Positions 12,428-30,065 of a stretch of 37,318 bases of DNA are shown here, piece by piece (position 1 is the stretch's first letter; each line of letters begins with the position of its first letter). The stretch covers positions 1-37,318 of the forward strand of contig CAIQQJ010000049.1 of the NCBI GenBank assembly GCA_903873905.1. Reading direction: 5' to 3'. The stretch is from an uncultured Flavobacteriales bacterium (GTDB lineage: Bacteria; Bacteroidota; Bacteroidia; Palsa-965). The position numbers and the translations under genes are program-made. The notes under the pieces were generated by a model. That model was given only the letters and a program-made list of their open reading frames with translations, did not search any database and had not been told where the DNA came from.

Positions 12428-14413
12428 TTATCTGTGCATATTTTGGACATAAATATCATTGCCAACTTTCATAAATGTATTCAGGCAATTTCCTTTGTCT
12501 GTAAAATAAACATCCAGATTTTGTTTCACGCCATTGCCTGTTAATTCTACATAATCGAACATGGAAATTAACGTATTGAATATCTCATTTTCCCTTTTTC
12601 CCATTTTTGATTCCAAATATTGCGGGAGAACAGCAGGGTATTTTGTGATATTCAAATTGAAGTAGGTGTACAAAGGATCATTGGAAATAACATCTGACAT
12701 CTTTGGTGTTAGCGGATTTGTTGCTTTGATATTTGAATTCAATTGTTGTGCAATATCAAAATCATTACTGAAAAAATAATTGGCGCCATGATGTGTCATG
12801 TAATAATTTCCCATCATAAAAAGATCCCAAGATTTTATTCCATCAGTTGTATCTGTTGGATTTGATCGATTGATGATTCTATCGATTGTTTTGGTATCAT
12901 TTACTGTTATTCCAAAAATCAATGAAGGAGCAACAACTGTGTCAAGAATTGTGGTATAGGAAAATTGATCTGATTCATAATCATAAACCATGTCTTGTTT
13001 TTCCTTGACAGTTTGTTTTATATCAGCCAAAGCTAAATAAGCTTCACCCGATAAAATACCTGCAAGTTGTGTTCGATCGATGTCAAGTTCTCTTGCCATT
13101 TCGTCAAGTCCTTCAGACATTTTTGAGTCTTTGTTCATATAGTCATAAAGTGCTTTCAAATCGATTGACATTGTTGCAACACCATAAGCATTTCCTGGGA
13201 TGGAATTTTTGAGTTCATCGTTGATTCCTTTTTGGCCGAAGAAATTGGATGTGTTGGCTGATGTATTTGATTTCGAAGGAAAAAATTCTGAAGCATAAGA
13301 TAATTTTCCATCATTAAAATCAATTGTAGCCATTGTACTTGCGCCACGCATATAGGAAGGTAGTGTAACGCCTGGAATGGAATGAATTCCATCGAAATTC
13401 ACAAAGAATCCAATATCGTATTTGGCATTCTTGAATTTATCGAATGATTCCACGGAAAGAATACTTGCATCGGCATCTTGTTCCAAAAGACTCTTGCAAT
13501 AATTTTCCTTTCTAGAGCTGGAACGATCGGAATAGTAAATTATTCCACCGGCTTTATTCCAAGCAATACAAGAACCACTTTCAAGATCTAAATAATTATA
13601 GTTACCTGTTGAGCGGATGTCACCATTTTTTGAAAGACGCATTACGAATTTGTGAAAATCATCTTCGTTCTTAATGGAAAATACAATTCCGCCGCTGAAT
13701 TGTGGGGAATCGTTGCCTTCAAAACAGGCAAAAGCATAGGGCTGTGAAAATATATCTACACCTGAGGATAATGGTTCACTCATTGCTTTCGACAAAATTT
13801 CATTCTCATCTCTCGCGTGATCTTTCATGTCCATGTAAAAATCAAGCTTCTGCATTTTGTCTACATCAATTTTTTCTGAAATGTTTTTGAAATTGATGGA
13901 GGATACTACAAATGCATTTGATGGAATGTATTTCAGATGAACGTAGGATGGTCTGGTGTAGAAATAGAGGAAGGCTATAATAATCAGCACGACGAGTAAA
14001 ACACTTCCCCCAACTAAAGCAATTATTTTCTTTTTGTTTTTTGGCTTTTGTACCGGAGGCATATTTGTGTCAGTTGGTATTGTGCCATATTGTGGGTTTT
14101 GTGTTGCACTAAAAACAGGAGGAACATAATTTGTTTGTGGTGCTTGATTGGTATTTGGTGGTGGAGTTTGATACATAAAATAATTTCTCCAAGGCAATGG
14201 AACTTGTCCTGCATTGACAACATCGGTTGGGCGCAACTGCACAATTCCTTGCACGCGATAACCATTTACAAAAGTGCCATATTGGGAATTATAATCTGTC
14301 AGTAAAAAATTCCCTTGATCATCCTGAACAATTTCCAAATGAACAGGAGATACCGAAGGATGATTAAGTACAATATTATTTGTAGGGGCGGTACCAATTG
14401 TCATTTTGATCAT
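12428..14413 (-). CDS. FHA domain - transmembrane - DUF4836 protein
   Basis: A 661-residue protein in three parts. Residues 1-80 are an FHA domain (NNIVLNHPSVSPVHLEI, then LTDYNSQYGTFVNGYRV), a fold that binds phosphothreonine peptides. A Pro/Gln/Asn-rich linker leads to one transmembrane helix (about 128-151). The remaining 500 residues outside the membrane start with YVHLKYIPSNAFVVSSINFKN, which I recognise as the DUF4836 family of Bacteroidota envelope proteins. The topology puts the phosphopeptide reader in the cytoplasm and the large domain in the periplasm. Met4 is an alternative start. The gene is monocistronic. No Ser/Thr kinase of the Hanks type is in the window. Confidence 0.82.
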   Translation of the reverse strand: MIKMTIGTAPTNNIVLNHPSVSPVHLEIVQDDQGNFLLTDYNSQYGTFVNGYRVQGIVQLRPTDVVNAGQVPLPWRNYFMYQTPPPNTNQAPQTNYVPPVFSATQNPQYGTIPTDTNMPPVQKPKNKKKIIALVGGSVLLVVLIIIAFLYFYTRPSYVHLKYIPSNAFVVSSINFKNISEKIDVDKMQKLDFYMDMKDHARDENEILSKAMSEPLSSGVDIFSQPYAFACFEGNDSPQFSGGIVFSIKNEDDFHKFVMRLSKNGDIRSTGNYNYLDLESGSCIAWNKAGGIIYYSDRSSSRKENYCKSLLEQDADASILSVESFDKFKNAKYDIGFFVNFDGIHSIPGVTLPSYMRGASTMATIDFNDGKLSYASEFFPSKSNTSANTSNFFGQKGINDELKNSIPGNAYGVATMSIDLKALYDYMNKDSKMSEGLDEMARELDIDRTQLAGILSGEAYLALADIKQTVKEKQDMVYDYESDQFSYTTILDTVVAPSLIFGITVNDTKTIDRIINRSNPTDTTDGIKSWDLFMMGNYYMTHHGANYFFSNDFDIAQQLNSNIKATNPLTPKMSDVISNDPLYTYFNLNITKYPAVLPQYLESKMGKRENEIFNTLISMFDYVELTGNGVKQNLDVYFTDKGNCLNTFMKVGNDIYVQNMHR

Positions 14414-25201: not shown

Positions 25202-26287
25202 ATGCACGCCCCACGCTTCCCAGTTTTAGCTAAAAATTTTCCTTTCATTTTGTATTACCGCGGTAAATACAAAACAGATCTTTCCATTAATATTTTCGAA
25301 ATTGTCAATGCCAATCTTTCGCTACATTTCAAGAAAAGTTTTGTTACACGCTTGTCGTATCTCGTAATCGAATGTATTCAGAATGTTATTAAGTACAGCG
25401 AAAGCAAGGATTCTTCAAGTGATTATTGTCTCATTTATTCCGATGAAAATTTCTGTCATGTTGTTACTGGAAATAGGATTTCCTTTAACAACGTGGAAAA
25501 TTTGGAGAACAGATTGTTTACATTAAAAAAACAAACAATTGAAGAAATTGAAGAAGCATACAATTCAGTTCTTCGCTCAAAAACTTATACGACTAAAGGA
25601 GCTGGCTTAGGATTGATTGACATTGCCCGAAAAACGGGGAAGCGAATGGAGTATACGCTTCAAAAAGAATCGGAGGAAGAATGGTTTTATTCCCTACATA
25701 TTAAATTGCCACTTCCAAGTCAGGAAATAACTTCACACCATTTCGAAGAGCAAACGGAATCCATTATCAAATCATTGATTGATTCGCATTCACATAATGA
25801 GAATACCTTTTTATATTCTGGAGATTTTTCAAATACATTTCTTATCAATCTACTGGATATGATTACTGGGCAGTATAAAAACGAACGCTCAGTTGTTTCC
25901 TCCATTTTCAATTATGCTCTAATTGAATTGAACCAGAATATTCATCAGCATGCTACCTCGTTTTCGGATGGCAAAATACCTGGATTATTGGCAATCGAAT
26001 GGTTAAAGGAGTCAATGACGCTTTCCACATCTAATTTTATTTCAGAGGGAAAATGCGATCAATTATGCGATCAGTTGAATTTACTTAAACAAGCCAGTAA
26101 AGAAGAACTAAATGCATTGGGTGAAGAAAAAATGAATGATATGAACAGCAATGGTGGCTTGGGGTTAATTGACACAGCTCGCTTGAATTGGCCACGTCCT
26201 ATTCAGCATTCCTTTCATTCGGATGAAAATTTAGGAAAGAGTGTAAGTTTGAAAATTGAATTTGAATATGAACACCGAACTATTTAG
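25202..26287 (+). CDS. siaB: SiaB-family Ser/Thr protein kinase with two tandem ATPase domains
   Basis: SiaB kinases use a GHKL (histidine-kinase-like) ATPase fold to phosphorylate SiaC on a serine or threonine. Here two copies are joined in 361 residues. Domain 1 (about 13-175) has RGKYKTD, the N-box ECIQNVIKY near 56-64 and the G-box GAGLGLIDIAR near 133-143. Domain 2 (about 190-358) has YSGDFSN, the N-box ELNQNIHQHA near 243 and NGGLGLIDTAR near 316-326. Each copy is close to the full length of a usual SiaB protein. Both keep the N-box Asn and the glycine-rich box, so both could bind ATP. The siaC start codon lies inside this gene's 3' end. Confidence 0.82.
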   Translation: MHAPRFPVLAKNFPFILYYRGKYKTDLSINIFEIVNANLSLHFKKSFVTRLSYLVIECIQNVIKYSESKDSSSDYCLIYSDENFCHVVTGNRISFNNVENLENRLFTLKKQTIEEIEEAYNSVLRSKTYTTKGAGLGLIDIARKTGKRMEYTLQKESEEEWFYSLHIKLPLPSQEITSHHFEEQTESIIKSLIDSHSHNENTFLYSGDFSNTFLINLLDMITGQYKNERSVVSSIFNYALIELNQNIHQHATSFSDGKIPGLLAIEWLKESMTLSTSNFISEGKCDQLCDQLNLLKQASKEELNALGEEKMNDMNSNGGLGLIDTARLNWPRPIQHSFHSDENLGKSVSLKIEFEYEHRTI

Positions 26288-26651
26288 AATAGATGAAACA
26301 TTTGACTCACCATTGGTTGTAATAAAATCAGATTCGCCACAGATTTTATTAAAGGGAGTCTCCATGCCAGAAAATTCTTTTGAGTTTTATAATCCAATAG
26401 AAAATAAAATTCTGGAATTCCTCAATGCTATGGGGGACAAGGTGGAGATGGAAGTTGAATTGAATTATTTGAACTCTATGTCTGGCAAACAGATTTTACA
26501 ACTCATAAAAAAAATAAAAGCTGCTAAAAATAATTTCAGTGTATTGTGGAGACATAAAAATAATGACGACTTGATCCGGATAAAAGGCGAAGACATAAAA
26601 AAGATTTGTCCGAATGTGATGGTTGAATTAATTGCAATTATTACAACCTAA
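26268..26651 (+). CDS. siaC: SiaC-family regulatory phosphoprotein (DUF1987)
   Basis: SiaC is the switch protein of the Sia module; SiaB phosphorylates it and SiaA dephosphorylates it. In Pseudomonas aeruginosa unphosphorylated SiaC binds and activates the diguanylate cyclase SiaD. The 127-residue sequence has the family's SPQILLKGVSMPENSFEFYNP opening and the ELNYLNSMSGK phosphosite region. The residue matching the Pseudomonas Thr68 in LNTSS is Ser70 here, also phosphorylatable. The start is taken at ATG 26268, 20 nt inside siaB; an in-frame TTG at 26256 is less likely. Its last 11 nt overlap the convergent phosphatase gene. Confidence 0.87.
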   Translation: MNTELFRIDETFDSPLVVIKSDSPQILLKGVSMPENSFEFYNPIENKILEFLNAMGDKVEMEVELNYLNSMSGKQILQLIKKIKAAKNNFSVLWRHKNNDDLIRIKGEDIKKICPNVMVELIAIITT

Positions 26652-28362
26652 ATCCCATGATGCAGATATCATCAACTTGAAGATTTTGCACTCCCATCCA
26701 ATTCAATAATTCATTTTCAAAAACAGCAGGTGCATTGGAAAGATTCGGTAGTTTTTCCACTTTCAAAATCAATTCCCCAAATCTTTGCACATTGAATTTT
26801 GTTCTCTCTTGATCATTTCCTGCGAACTGATCCGCAAATCCATCAGTAAACAAATAAAAGGAGTCGCCTTTTTTATACAATATTTTTTGGTCGATCAGAT
26901 CTGATTCGAATAAATCGGAGCCAATCGATTTGGGTGTGGCTTTGTAAAATTGAAGATTTCCATCGCTTACCTGATAGAACCCATTTCCTATTCCTGAAAA
27001 AAGCATATCTCCGGTTTTAGTATTCAAGGAGATAATTGAAATGTCGATTCCATAATCCAATTGTTCTTTAGTCGATGAAAAAGTTTCCAAAATTGATAAG
27101 TTCATTTCCAATAATATTTTTGAAGGAAGCACTTCCCCTTTTTCATTTATAATTTCATCGAGAATCCTGTTTCCCAAAACGGTAAGCATTGCACCAGGAA
27201 CGCCATGTCCTGTACAATCTGCAACAAGGATTATTTTATGATTTTCAACTTCAGAGAACCAATGAAAATCTCCTGATAAAATATCTTTCGGCTTACTGTA
27301 TAAAAATGAATCCTTGAATATTTTGGCAAGTCCACTGATAGGCGGTAAAAAACTCTCCTGAATTACTGAAGCATAACGAACGCTGCTGAGAAATCGGGAA
27401 TTGATCTTTGTAATTTTCTCATTGCTGGCTGAAAGCTCAATTGCATGCTTTTTCTTTTCTCTGAAAAAATAATAGGTGAGGCCCAACGAAATGAGCATGA
27501 ACAAAAGGAAAAGACTTAAGAATAAAATTATCCGTTTTGAATTGGACAGTGAGGTTTCCTTTAAGTCAATAATGGATTCCTTGTCTTTAATTTTTTGTTC
27601 TGCAGAAATTATCTGCAAACTCAGGGATTTGTAGTCTTCTGATAAAGGCGATAATTTTTTCAATAAATCCTTCGCAGAAGCGAGGCTTTCCTTCAAGCTA
27701 TCCAAATTGTCACTTCTCATCTTGCGCACCACGGCCAATTTCTTCGCGTCCATAAATGCTCGATTGTTTTGTGTAATAGAGTCTGCATTCAATTCTACTT
27801 TGTCATTTTTAGGTTGAGCATTTGAATTTTCACCATTGTCATGATTATTGATATTCACTGCTTTTTCCAAGAGATGTGCATTGGAATTAAAAACATCAAG
27901 CATGGATGAGTTTTGTGAATTCCCTTCTTGAAATGCCAGACTTCCACTTTTCATTTCAACTTTACCGAGTCTAACATTCGAATTTTCGTCTTGTTTAAGA
28001 ATGAAGAAAAAAGATTCGAAAATAGATTTCTTGCCAGCAGATTTGTAATCCAAATCAAAAGAAACTGAAGAATAACCATTGTGACTAATTGTACACTGGT
28101 AAATGCCTGGGTAATCCAGCCTAATGGAATAGAAGCCGTTAATTCCTGTTGTGTAGGATTTTGCAAAGTCTCTTCCTGTGACGTTCACCAAAGCACCGGC
28201 AAGAGGTCCCTCAAAACTCAAATCCTTTTGCGCTTTTTTTAGCAGTAATATTTTTTTTGCGTTGAATGAAAAAATATTCCCTTCAAGTTGGATGGTTTGT
28301 GCTTTTCCTAGGAATGTTATTCCTGCAATGAAAAGCAATAATATTTCCCAACGTTTGGCCAT
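26641..28362 (-). CDS. Membrane SpoIIE/PP2C phosphatase with extracytoplasmic carboxypeptidase-regulatory-like domain (SiaA role)
   Basis: A 573-residue protein. A signal peptide (MAKRWEILLLF to KAQ) is followed by a CarboxypepD-regulatory-like beta-sandwich (about 25-110; GALVNVTGRDF, TGINGFYSIRL), an Asn-rich stretch, a coiled coil (about 200-275), one transmembrane helix (about 280-302) and a cytoplasmic SpoIIE-type PP2C domain. Metal-binding residues are visible in SGDFHW (near 362), ADCTGHG (near 381), TDGFAD (near 505) and VDDI (near 562). PP2C enzymes of this type dephosphorylate partner-switch proteins. Convergent siaC is the obvious substrate. SiaA of Pseudomonas is also a membrane PP2C but has a different sensor, so the input signal here is probably different. 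Confidence 0.85.
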   Translation of the reverse strand: MAKRWEILLLFIAGITFLGKAQTIQLEGNIFSFNAKKILLLKKAQKDLSFEGPLAGALVNVTGRDFAKSYTTGINGFYSIRLDYPGIYQCTISHNGYSSVSFDLDYKSAGKKSIFESFFFILKQDENSNVRLGKVEMKSGSLAFQEGNSQNSSMLDVFNSNAHLLEKAVNINNHDNGENSNAQPKNDKVELNADSITQNNRAFMDAKKLAVVRKMRSDNLDSLKESLASAKDLLKKLSPLSEDYKSLSLQIISAEQKIKDKESIIDLKETSLSNSKRIILFLSLFLLFMLISLGLTYYFFREKKKHAIELSASNEKITKINSRFLSSVRYASVIQESFLPPISGLAKIFKDSFLYSKPKDILSGDFHWFSEVENHKIILVADCTGHGVPGAMLTVLGNRILDEIINEKGEVLPSKILLEMNLSILETFSSTKEQLDYGIDISIISLNTKTGDMLFSGIGNGFYQVSDGNLQFYKATPKSIGSDLFESDLIDQKILYKKGDSFYLFTDGFADQFAGNDQERTKFNVQRFGELILKVEKLPNLSNAPAVFENELLNWMGVQNLQVDDICIMGFRL

Positions 28363-28428: not shown

Positions 28429-29073
28429 TCAAAATACCCTTACAAGTTCAAATGATTTCAATGAATTTGTCAGTCGAGTGATATCACCCGCATTTGATTC
28501 AAAAACACTTTGAAATTGCATAAAATGAATTCCAAATCTAATTCCGGTTTTCCCTGCAACAAAAGCAAAAGTTCCACACGGAAGCATGGCAAAAGCTTTC
28601 TCATCGGGGATATGTAAATAAAGCATATCAACTCCTGCTGCCAAAGACATTCCCAATTTTGAATGGAGTGAATTTGATAAGGTGCCGAAACGAAATGCAA
28701 ATTCAATTGGAATTCGACACGGTCCGAAAGTCATTCTAAATTTGGATGAGTAAAGCGGTGGAGCATATTTTGGATCAACGGATTTTTTTAATCGTGTGTA
28801 ATAAAATCCCAATCCGAGTTGCGGCCCCATACAAAATTTACCGGTGAGCGAATTGTGTAATGGAAGTGCATAGAATGCAGTTATCGTTTCACCAAATGTG
28901 AAAAGTTTTCTATCTACTGGTGTTGAAATTAAAAATGTGGTATCATAGGTAGAGGGAACAAGAACAATTCCCTTTTGTTTGATAATAAGAAATCCAAGCC
29001 CTCCCATAACTTGCAATTGAGCAAATGACAAGATTGGGATAAAAATAAAGAGAGTAAAGAGTGCTTTTTTCAA
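28429..29073 (-). CDS. Predicted outer-membrane or secreted protein of unknown family
   Basis: A 214-residue protein with a cleavable signal (MKKALFTLFIF, cleavage after SFAQ). The mature part alternates hydrophobic and polar residues (MGPQLGLGFYYTRL, IPIEFAFRFGTL, KTGIRFGIHFMQF), a beta-barrel-like pattern. No family was recognised. Its start is TTG, overlapping the stop of the upstream Asp-box gene in the sequence TTGA, so the two are translationally coupled. Confidence 0.65.
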   Translation of the reverse strand: MKKALFTLFIFIPILSFAQLQVMGGLGFLIIKQKGIVLVPSTYDTTFLISTPVDRKLFTFGETITAFYALPLHNSLTGKFCMGPQLGLGFYYTRLKKSVDPKYAPPLYSSKFRMTFGPCRIPIEFAFRFGTLSNSLHSKLGMSLAAGVDMLYLHIPDEKAFAMLPCGTFAFVAGKTGIRFGIHFMQFQSVFESNAGDITRLTNSLKSFELVRVF

Positions 29074-30065
29074 AATGTAATTTTCAGAATGGTTGCATTG
29101 TATCCAGTTTCCGGACCGCCTGCTCCAATAATTGTATGATCATCAACGGCAACAAATCCTTTGAAAATATAATGCGAAAAGTCAGTTCCATCTTTAGACA
29201 ATGGGAAATGCCAAGTTTCGCCATTATCAATTGAAATCATGAGACAACGATCGCTACTTGCTACAACTGTTTTACCATCTTCACAATAAGTTAGATTGGT
29301 GAAATTATGCCCAGAATCCACCCACACCTGTGTCCATGTAGTTCCATAGTTTAAGGTTCTATAAATTCCACGATCAGAATAATTTGTTTTAAATGATTTT
29401 CCAGAATGTGCAAAAGGTGTTCTTTCCTGATAATCTCCAAGTGAAGTCCAGGTAGTTCCACCGTCAATTGTCTTGTAAAAGAATCCGTTCGATGTTCCAA
29501 AGCCAATGGAATGATCAAAAAACTGAATGGAGGAAGTATATAATGCAGGTAATGTTCCTGAACTAACAGTCCATGATGTACCTGCATCTGATGTTTCCAA
29601 TAATTGCAAAGAGGCAGCAGGAGGAATAGCAGAAACGGCAAAGCCATGTTTTCCATTATAATAATTCAAGTAACAATTTTGGTTCAATGTAAAAACCTGT
29701 GTCCAAGTTGCACAAGCATCCGTGCTTCTATAACAGAGGCAATGATGATTGGGAGCATCTTGAATTGTGAAAAACGCCGTGTCTTTATTCGGAAATTGAA
29801 TGTTTAGAATTGAACCGATTGATGATGCATCAAAACAACTTGTCCATGTTTCACCTGCGTCGTTGGTCTTCAGCAATTGTGCATTTTCATAGGTGAAAAT
29901 CAAACCATGTTGAGCATCCGAAAAAACAGGAATAGTACTCAGATTGCTCAAATTGTTCCCAACCACCACAGATTTTACATCCACCACAAACAGCTTTGGT
30001 TTAACAATCGTTTTTGTACAACTGCTGATAAGTAAAATAATAAGAAATGGAAGAGAATATTTCAA
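29070..30065 (-). CDS. Asp-box (BNR/YCF48-like) beta-propeller lipoprotein
   Basis: A 331-residue lipoprotein; the lipobox is LLISSCTK. The mature protein is a run of at least six Asp-box-like repeats, each a strand followed by a turn of the form S/T-x-D-x-G-x-T-W: TNDAGETW, STDACATW, TSDAGTSW, TIDGGTTW, TLNYGTTW and SIDNGETW. This gives a beta-propeller related to YCF48 and sialidase propellers. No sialidase catalytic Arg triad was recognised, so it is more likely a binding or assembly protein at the cell envelope. The start is TTG (complement of 30063-30065), chosen because it opens directly into a standard lipoprotein signal and no ATG is near. Confidence 0.8.
   Translation of the reverse strand: MKYSLPFLIILLISSCTKTIVKPKLFVVDVKSVVVGNNLSNLSTIPVFSDAQHGLIFTYENAQLLKTNDAGETWTSCFDASSIGSILNIQFPNKDTAFFTIQDAPNHHCLCYRSTDACATWTQVFTLNQNCYLNYYNGKHGFAVSAIPPAASLQLLETSDAGTSWTVSSGTLPALYTSSIQFFDHSIGFGTSNGFFYKTIDGGTTWTSLGDYQERTPFAHSGKSFKTNYSDRGIYRTLNYGTTWTQVWVDSGHNFTNLTYCEDGKTVVASSDRCLMISIDNGETWHFPLSKDGTDFSHYIFKGFVAVDDHTIIGAGGPETGYNATILKITF

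Follow-up and report, generated by a model that had tools for sequence, protein, structure and literature searches.

A probable SiaABC-type partner switch with a fused double SiaB kinase in an uncultured Flavobacteriales bacterium

Genes of the locus

The stretch of DNA analyzed here (the window) is 37,318 nucleotides long and comes from contig CAIQQJ010000049.1 of an uncultured Flavobacteriales bacterium. Positions 25202 to 28362 carry a kinase gene (siaBB), a siaC gene, and a membrane PP2C phosphatase gene, which an original prediction from the sequence had described as a SiaABC-type partner switch with a doubled SiaB kinase and no SiaD. The features of this locus are as follows.

25202..26287, plus strand: siaBB, fused double SiaB-family (DUF6272, GHKL) kinase of 361 amino acids (aa), identified by two PF19788 matches, NCBIfam SiaB_fam_kinase, AlphaFold2 (AF2), and a fold match to 6kko
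25226..25717, plus strand: N half of siaBB, residues ~9-172 (PF19788, motifs, VIA-align)
25370-25372, 25382-25384, and 25598-25612, plus strand: E57, N61, and GAGLG (residues 133-137) of the N half
25739..26269, plus strand: C half of siaBB, residues ~180-356 (PF19788, motifs, VIA-align)
25925-25927, 25937-25939, and 26150-26164, plus strand: E242, N246, and a relaxed glycine box, NGGLG (residues 317-321), of the C half
26256..26651, plus strand: siaC, STAS-like SiaC/DUF1987 phosphoprotein (PF09345), with ATG 26268 the likelier start
26475-26477, plus strand: codon of the Ser in the Thr68 position, in the siaC acceptor motif NSMS (alignment of SiaCs)
26641..28362, minus strand: siaA-like membrane PP2C (SpoIIE-type PP2C profile, metal-site motifs)

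The siaBB product matches PF19788 (DUF6272) twice, scoring 89.0 and 56.2 bits (curated cut-off, 26.6), and the NCBIfam model SiaB_fam_kinase (NF038262) over two stretches at 149.1 bits (cut-off, 85). It fails the SiaB equivalog model for the single-domain P. aeruginosa type (NF038264; 72.1 versus 225 bits), being itself a two-domain protein. Each half has its own N-box (E57-x2-Q60-N61 in the N half and E242-x2-Q245-N246 in the C half), with the Glu and Asn needed for catalysis, and its own glycine box (KGAGLG starting at residue 132 and NGGLG starting at residue 317). The profile searches placed neither half outside the SiaB/DUF6272 family, and the proposal that 25202-26287 encodes two complete SiaB-family domains was confirmed. 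These domains are not a product of chance, since the catalytic Glu and Asn are retained in essentially all of the 67 fused homologues found with hidden Markov models (HMM): both residues are present in 67/67 C halves, and the N halves keep Glu in 66 and Asn in 65, one miss being a gap.

The siaC gene starts at a TTG (26256) or, more likely, at the ATG at 26268, and overlaps siaBB by 32 or 20 bp, respectively. Its product scores 79.8 bits against PF09345 (cut-off, 24.5) and falls short of the SiaC equivalog NF038265 (53.6 versus 150 bits); the phospho-acceptor column is Ser or Thr in 145/145 aligned SiaCs. The PP2C gene is convergent with siaC, and their 3' ends overlap by 11 bp, as read from the coordinates. 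The encoded phosphatase has an N-terminal hydrophobic segment resembling a signal peptide, a CarboxypepD_reg-like region (residues 53-102), a single transmembrane (TM) segment (278-296), and a SpoIIE/PP2C domain (~309-573) in which the metal-site motifs are intact (GDF 364, DCTGHG 382, DG 507, DD 564). It matches PF07228, the SpoIIE-type PP2C family, at 41.7 bits (cut-off, 25) and fails the SiaA equivalog NF038263 (139.8 versus 700 bits), which aligns with residues 307-573, the PP2C part only. The overlap of siaC with the kinase gene and the convergent membrane PP2C therefore both stand as first described, and the three family assignments, together with the clustering of the genes, support the reading of 25202-28362 as a SiaABC-type set whose SiaB is doubled and fused.

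Matches to the window PP2C number 27 in the window genome (G000) and up to 42 in relatives, versus three SiaB and five SiaC genes in G000, so that SpoIIE-type phosphatases make up very large sets by comparison.

Predicted structure of the double kinase

An AF2 model of siaBB, built with 97 doubles, reached a pLDDT of 88.2 and a pTM of 0.87, which makes the predicted packing of one half against the other confident. Foldseek ranks 6kko_A/B, the P. aeruginosa SiaB of the SiaB-SiaC crystal, first and second for this model (9.6e-6). In VIA-align, the C half (model residues 183-354) aligns with SiaB 6kko_A at Z 16.3 (rmsd 2.4 over 165 residues) and the N half (residues 12-172) with SpoIIAB 1th8_A at Z 12.4; a double-SiaB profile matches the 6kko SiaB chain at 1.6e-27, and a viral structure library gave zero matches at E <= 0.001.

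SiaB forms dimers and phosphorylates SiaC on Thr68, and a SiaB-SiaC crystal structure exists (PMC7278518); E61 is the predicted catalytic Glu of SiaB (PMC7647112). Because SiaB dimers are published and the packing of the modeled halves is confident, a covalent dimer is a plausible and the simplest reading of the fusion, in agreement with the internal dimer first suggested. The further suggestion that one half had become a sensor or a dead anti-partner of SiaC did not hold up: with Glu and Asn kept in both, the halves resemble neither dead kinases nor converted sensors, and only the C-half glycine box is relaxed.

Gene order and natural fusions in other genomes

In 47 of 66 doubles, siaC directly follows the kinase gene on its strand, usually a few bases away or overlapping it. 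The window layout, with a convergent PP2C after siaC, occurs at 19 of the 66 double loci, and a co-directional PP2C is found at 14. Among the 19 convergent PP2Cs, 14 have TPR regions and 2, including that of the window, match CarboxypepD_reg at 0.001; by sequence comparison, the window sensor type is also present in the convergent PP2Cs of loci L035, L039, L108, L119, L135, L163, and L184, and Pfam agrees for L035 and L135.

Ten proteins are SiaB-SiaB-SiaC fusions, one of which (L142) gave a moderate AF2 model (pLDDT, 79; pTM, 0.65). At L043:5322-9944 (minus strand), a 1,540-aa protein consists of a two-component-regulator propeller sensor, a PP2C, and two SiaB domains, with siaC as the next gene, so that phosphatase and kinase are on one polypeptide. 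These natural fusions show that the kinase, SiaC, and the phosphatase act together.

Variation in siaC copy number was also observed. One double siaB is followed by two or three consecutive siaC genes at L109, L115, L122, L123, and L149 (mostly Chlorobi metagenome-assembled genomes [MAGs]), and a 262-residue open frame at G035:C120:5792-6529 has two SiaC domains, a doubled substrate that parallels the doubled kinase. In the window genome, an orphan siaC (L200:5785-6162, contig G000:C131) has MgtE-like and dehydrogenase-like neighbors, as does the siaB-siaC pair L206:6076-7016 of a relative (G007:C21), which suggests that a siaB was lost beside the orphan.

Distribution of double SiaB proteins

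We surveyed 395 genomes of the class with a profile of doubles; 144 genomes had a match at 1e-50, single SiaBs counted in, and retrieval and gene calling left 67 fused doubles, which form our unbiased set. A further 80 loci of Bacteroidota and Chlorobi, most of them from MAGs, came from a named collection. A phylum-wide draw, in which the listed genomes are all highly complete, gave 2 doubles in 395, and the fused double SiaB is patchy in the phylum. In phylogenetic trees, 63/66 N halves fall in one clade and 64/66 C halves in another; since the halves form separate clades, they are, on this phylogeny, two ancient lineages, and the main fusion is an ancient event. L030 and L167 represent a second fusion, derived from a tandem pair that is still found as separate genes, for example, at L045 in the genus of the window organism. 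The survey corrects the idea of siaBB as a curiosity of the window: it belongs, as a very diverged example, to an ancient architecture that is widespread in Bacteroidota and Chlorobi.

In the open-licence literature searched, nothing was found on DUF6272, the SiaB-family kinase, or the SiaC-family phosphoprotein under these family names, and no description of the double kinase was found, in line with the expectation that the double form was undescribed. DUF1987 appeared there in the SiaC-SiaD paper only, and among the papers listed, those on this SiaABC system concern Pseudomonas.

Absence of GGDEF proteins

The observation that no GGDEF gene lies near the locus holds assembly-wide, as no PF00990 (GGDEF) match was found in the whole window assembly, which is 100% complete; the same search finds GGDEF in 8/14 control genomes. 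Among 59 genomes of the class, 43 carry SiaB, the identical 43 carry SiaC, and GGDEF occurs in 0/59. Given this absence from the window genome and from all 59 class genomes, 43 of them with SiaB and SiaC, the target of SiaC in this class is probably something other than a diguanylate cyclase, as had been anticipated, and the window organism appears to make no c-di-GMP.

Proposed mechanism and candidate target

We propose that the double SiaB is a covalent, pseudo-dimeric Ser/Thr kinase that would phosphorylate SiaC on the Ser at the Thr68 position. Of its two protomers, the N half would be the more constrained kinase unit, and the C half would also bind ATP but have a relaxed lid. Dephosphorylation of SiaC would fall to the membrane PP2C, under the control of a putative periplasmic CarboxypepD_reg-like sensor domain, and unphosphorylated SiaC would bind and switch a target other than a diguanylate cyclase. 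We give this overall explanation a probability of about 0.7; kinase and phosphatase activity, dimer geometry, the direction of the switch, and the exporter target discussed below are what we infer within it.

The best candidate target in the class is an ABC-2 exporter operon, which in the window genome is on another contig. The operon, found by inspecting the genes that follow siaC in tandem loci, encodes an ABC-2 ABC protein of ~1,030 aa with a TerB domain (a weak match, near its cut-off), a lipoprotein of ~300 aa (p300), and a small secreted protein of ~140 aa (p140). At 19 loci it is no more than 1.2 kb from a siaC, and the two are co-directional at 8 of these and convergent at 11; in the co-directional order, siaC is upstream of the ABC gene, which takes the place of siaD in Pseudomonas. 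The exporter occurs in 37/43 SiaB-positive versus 1/16 SiaB-negative class genomes (Fisher p = 1.9e-8, in a test that treats genomes as independent despite shared ancestry). At the double-SiaB loci of G305, G363, L143, and L144, it is on the divergent side.

The double-SiaB loci beside the exporter are L108, L135, L143, L144, L253, and L254. L108 (Cesiribacter andamanensis) and L135 (Nafulsella turpanensis) share the order siaBB, siaC (uncalled in L108), convergent PP2C, small gene, p140, p300, and ABC, and have a PP2C sensor of the window type with the exporter operon next door. At L253:1410-5978 and L254:10080-14606, the double siaB and the exporter operon are separated by the gene for a protein of ~1,500 aa that looks secreted, lacks a Pfam match, and could be a cargo or partner.

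Several points, including the shared ancestry just mentioned, weigh against the proposal. The window genome has its exporter operon on contig C179, where the 10 kb examined contain no siaC, and exporter-linked SiaCs are mostly core single-SiaB ones. The window siaBB is by far the most diverged double and has no orthologue in its genus, so that its function may have drifted, and its C half, whose glycine box is missing the first glycine, may be unable to turn over ATP. We therefore regard the exporter as a possible but rather doubtful target of SiaC at the window locus. A more general form of the idea, in which a SiaABC switch without c-di-GMP operates across Bacteroidota and Chlorobi, the fused SiaB and a sensor PP2C set SiaC phosphorylation, and SiaC gates the TerB ABC-2 exporter (with p300 and p140) rather than a cyclase, is likewise possible but doubtful. 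If true, it would make the Pseudomonas SiaD link one of several SiaABC outputs.

Alternative explanations

There is a nearly even chance that the window SiaC has a different target, for example, an ion channel, a transcription factor, an anti-sigma factor, or the secreted proteins whose genes lie upstream of that for the PP2C, and that the exporter serves only the core single-SiaB pathway. This would fit the unlinked exporter of the window genome. It would also fit the acceptor residue, which is Thr in 25/26 single-SiaB loci and Ser in 69/102 double-SiaB loci, as insulated pathways would show, a contrast that is suggestive only, as most of the single-SiaB loci sampled belong to one core clade and the loci are non-independent. 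Six SiaB-SiaB-SiaC fusions (L106:2592-6175, L094, L110, L113, L139, and L142) are directly followed by one family of ~560-664-aa proteins; the member scanned has a C-terminal Ion_trans_2 channel, a possible SiaC output. The double-SiaB loci that adjoin the exporter, two of which share the window PP2C sensor, argue in the other direction. The genes next to rumen doubles (aspartokinase- and threonine-synthase-like) and RlmD-like genes were rejected as SiaC targets, as their sequence starts look housekeeping.

A second alternative, somewhat short of even odds, is an asymmetric kinase in which the N half alone phosphorylates SiaC and the C half binds nucleotide or SiaC as a regulatory or scaffold partner. 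The first glycine of the glycine box is present in 36/37 N halves versus 19/37 C halves (nonredundant; p = 6e-6), as counted in HMM-found loci only, loci fetched by N-half motifs being excluded as biased. Pairwise conservation is likewise higher in N halves (36%) than in C halves (28%), and the window siaBB follows the trend, with GAGLG in its N half and NGGLG in its C half. At L042 the N-half motifs were lost instead, so the loss of one half is tolerated. Against this stands the invariance of the N-box Glu and Asn across the C halves, which an ATP-free scaffold would not need.

It is unlikely, in our estimate, that the window double is a separate fusion, or a decaying or repurposed copy, outside the ancient double-SiaB lineage. 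Both window halves are very long branches, and the N half lies outside the main N clade and is nearer to single SiaBs than to other N halves (27% versus 23%). No fused orthologue of siaBB was found in its genus, and L030/L167 provide an example of independent fusion from a tandem pair. However, the C half falls inside the C clade (support, 92/91), and a topology with the N half inside the N clade survives the AU test (p = 0.253). The window layout and PP2C sensor also match those of other main-clade doubles, and the window siaBB retains 26/32 near-invariant positions; at positions conserved at 70%, it keeps 38/72, versus 62% or more (median, 88%) in the other doubles.

A classical SiaABCD output, in which SiaC activates a diguanylate cyclase encoded elsewhere, draws on homology to the Pseudomonas system only and was rejected as highly improbable, being contradicted by the missing GGDEF unless an unrecognized cyclase fold is involved.

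Neighboring genes in the window

Listed here are two genes that lie upstream of the PP2C gene and run in its direction, and another protein of the window.

28429-29073, minus strand: gene without a Pfam family, 66 bp upstream of the PP2C gene
29070-30065, minus strand: gene for a Ycf48/BNR-like secreted protein
12428-14413, minus strand: 661-aa protein that pairs an N-terminal FHA domain with DUF4836, the architecture of a phosphothreonine reader

By their coordinates, the genes at 28429..30065 possibly share a transcript with the PP2C gene. No sigma factor gene was identified among the window open reading frames scanned with Pfam.

Comparison with known systems

As a variant of an established partner switch, the double-SiaB form is new and widespread, and in this class it has a concrete candidate target. 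SiaC in the literature found is a diguanylate-cyclase activator only, yet SiaB and SiaC are common in this class and GGDEF is missing from all 59 genomes surveyed. Double SiaB proteins form a large, old, and overlooked family, mostly of uncultured lineages, in which kinase-kinase-substrate and phosphatase-kinase-kinase fusions occur naturally. Conservation of the exporter neighborhood makes the question of what SiaC targets in the absence of c-di-GMP directly testable, and two cultured species, C. andamanensis and N. turpanensis, have the double kinase beside the exporter operon.

The closest known system is SiaABCD of P. aeruginosa (SiaB-SiaC, PDB 6KKO), which likewise clusters a SiaB-family GHKL kinase, a SiaC/DUF1987 phosphoprotein, and a membrane PP2C; the catalytic Glu is kept, and the phospho-acceptor follows the same Asn (Asn67). 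The window, however, has a fused double SiaB, a Ser rather than a Thr acceptor, and a convergent PP2C with a CarboxypepD_reg-like sensor. The genome contains no SiaD and no GGDEF protein, and all three proteins of the locus score under the NCBIfam equivalog cut-offs.

The SpoIIAB/SpoIIAA and RsbW/RsbV switches also combine a GHKL Ser/Thr kinase, a STAS-like substrate, and a PP2C phosphatase, and each window half has the GHKL fold of their kinases (VIA-align Z 11-13 to 1th8_A, 6m36_G, and 8ih8_C). The window differs in that its kinase is of the SiaB family rather than an anti-sigma factor, the kinases are a fused pair, and the cluster contains no sigma factor. Finally, the multidomain RsbU-RsbW protein Rv1364c of M. 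tuberculosis (3KE6) is, by its structure title, a precedent for fused partner-switch components and parallels the PP2C-SiaB-SiaB and SiaB-SiaB-SiaC proteins; the window protein, in contrast, fuses two kinases, not kinase and phosphatase, and belongs to another kinase family.

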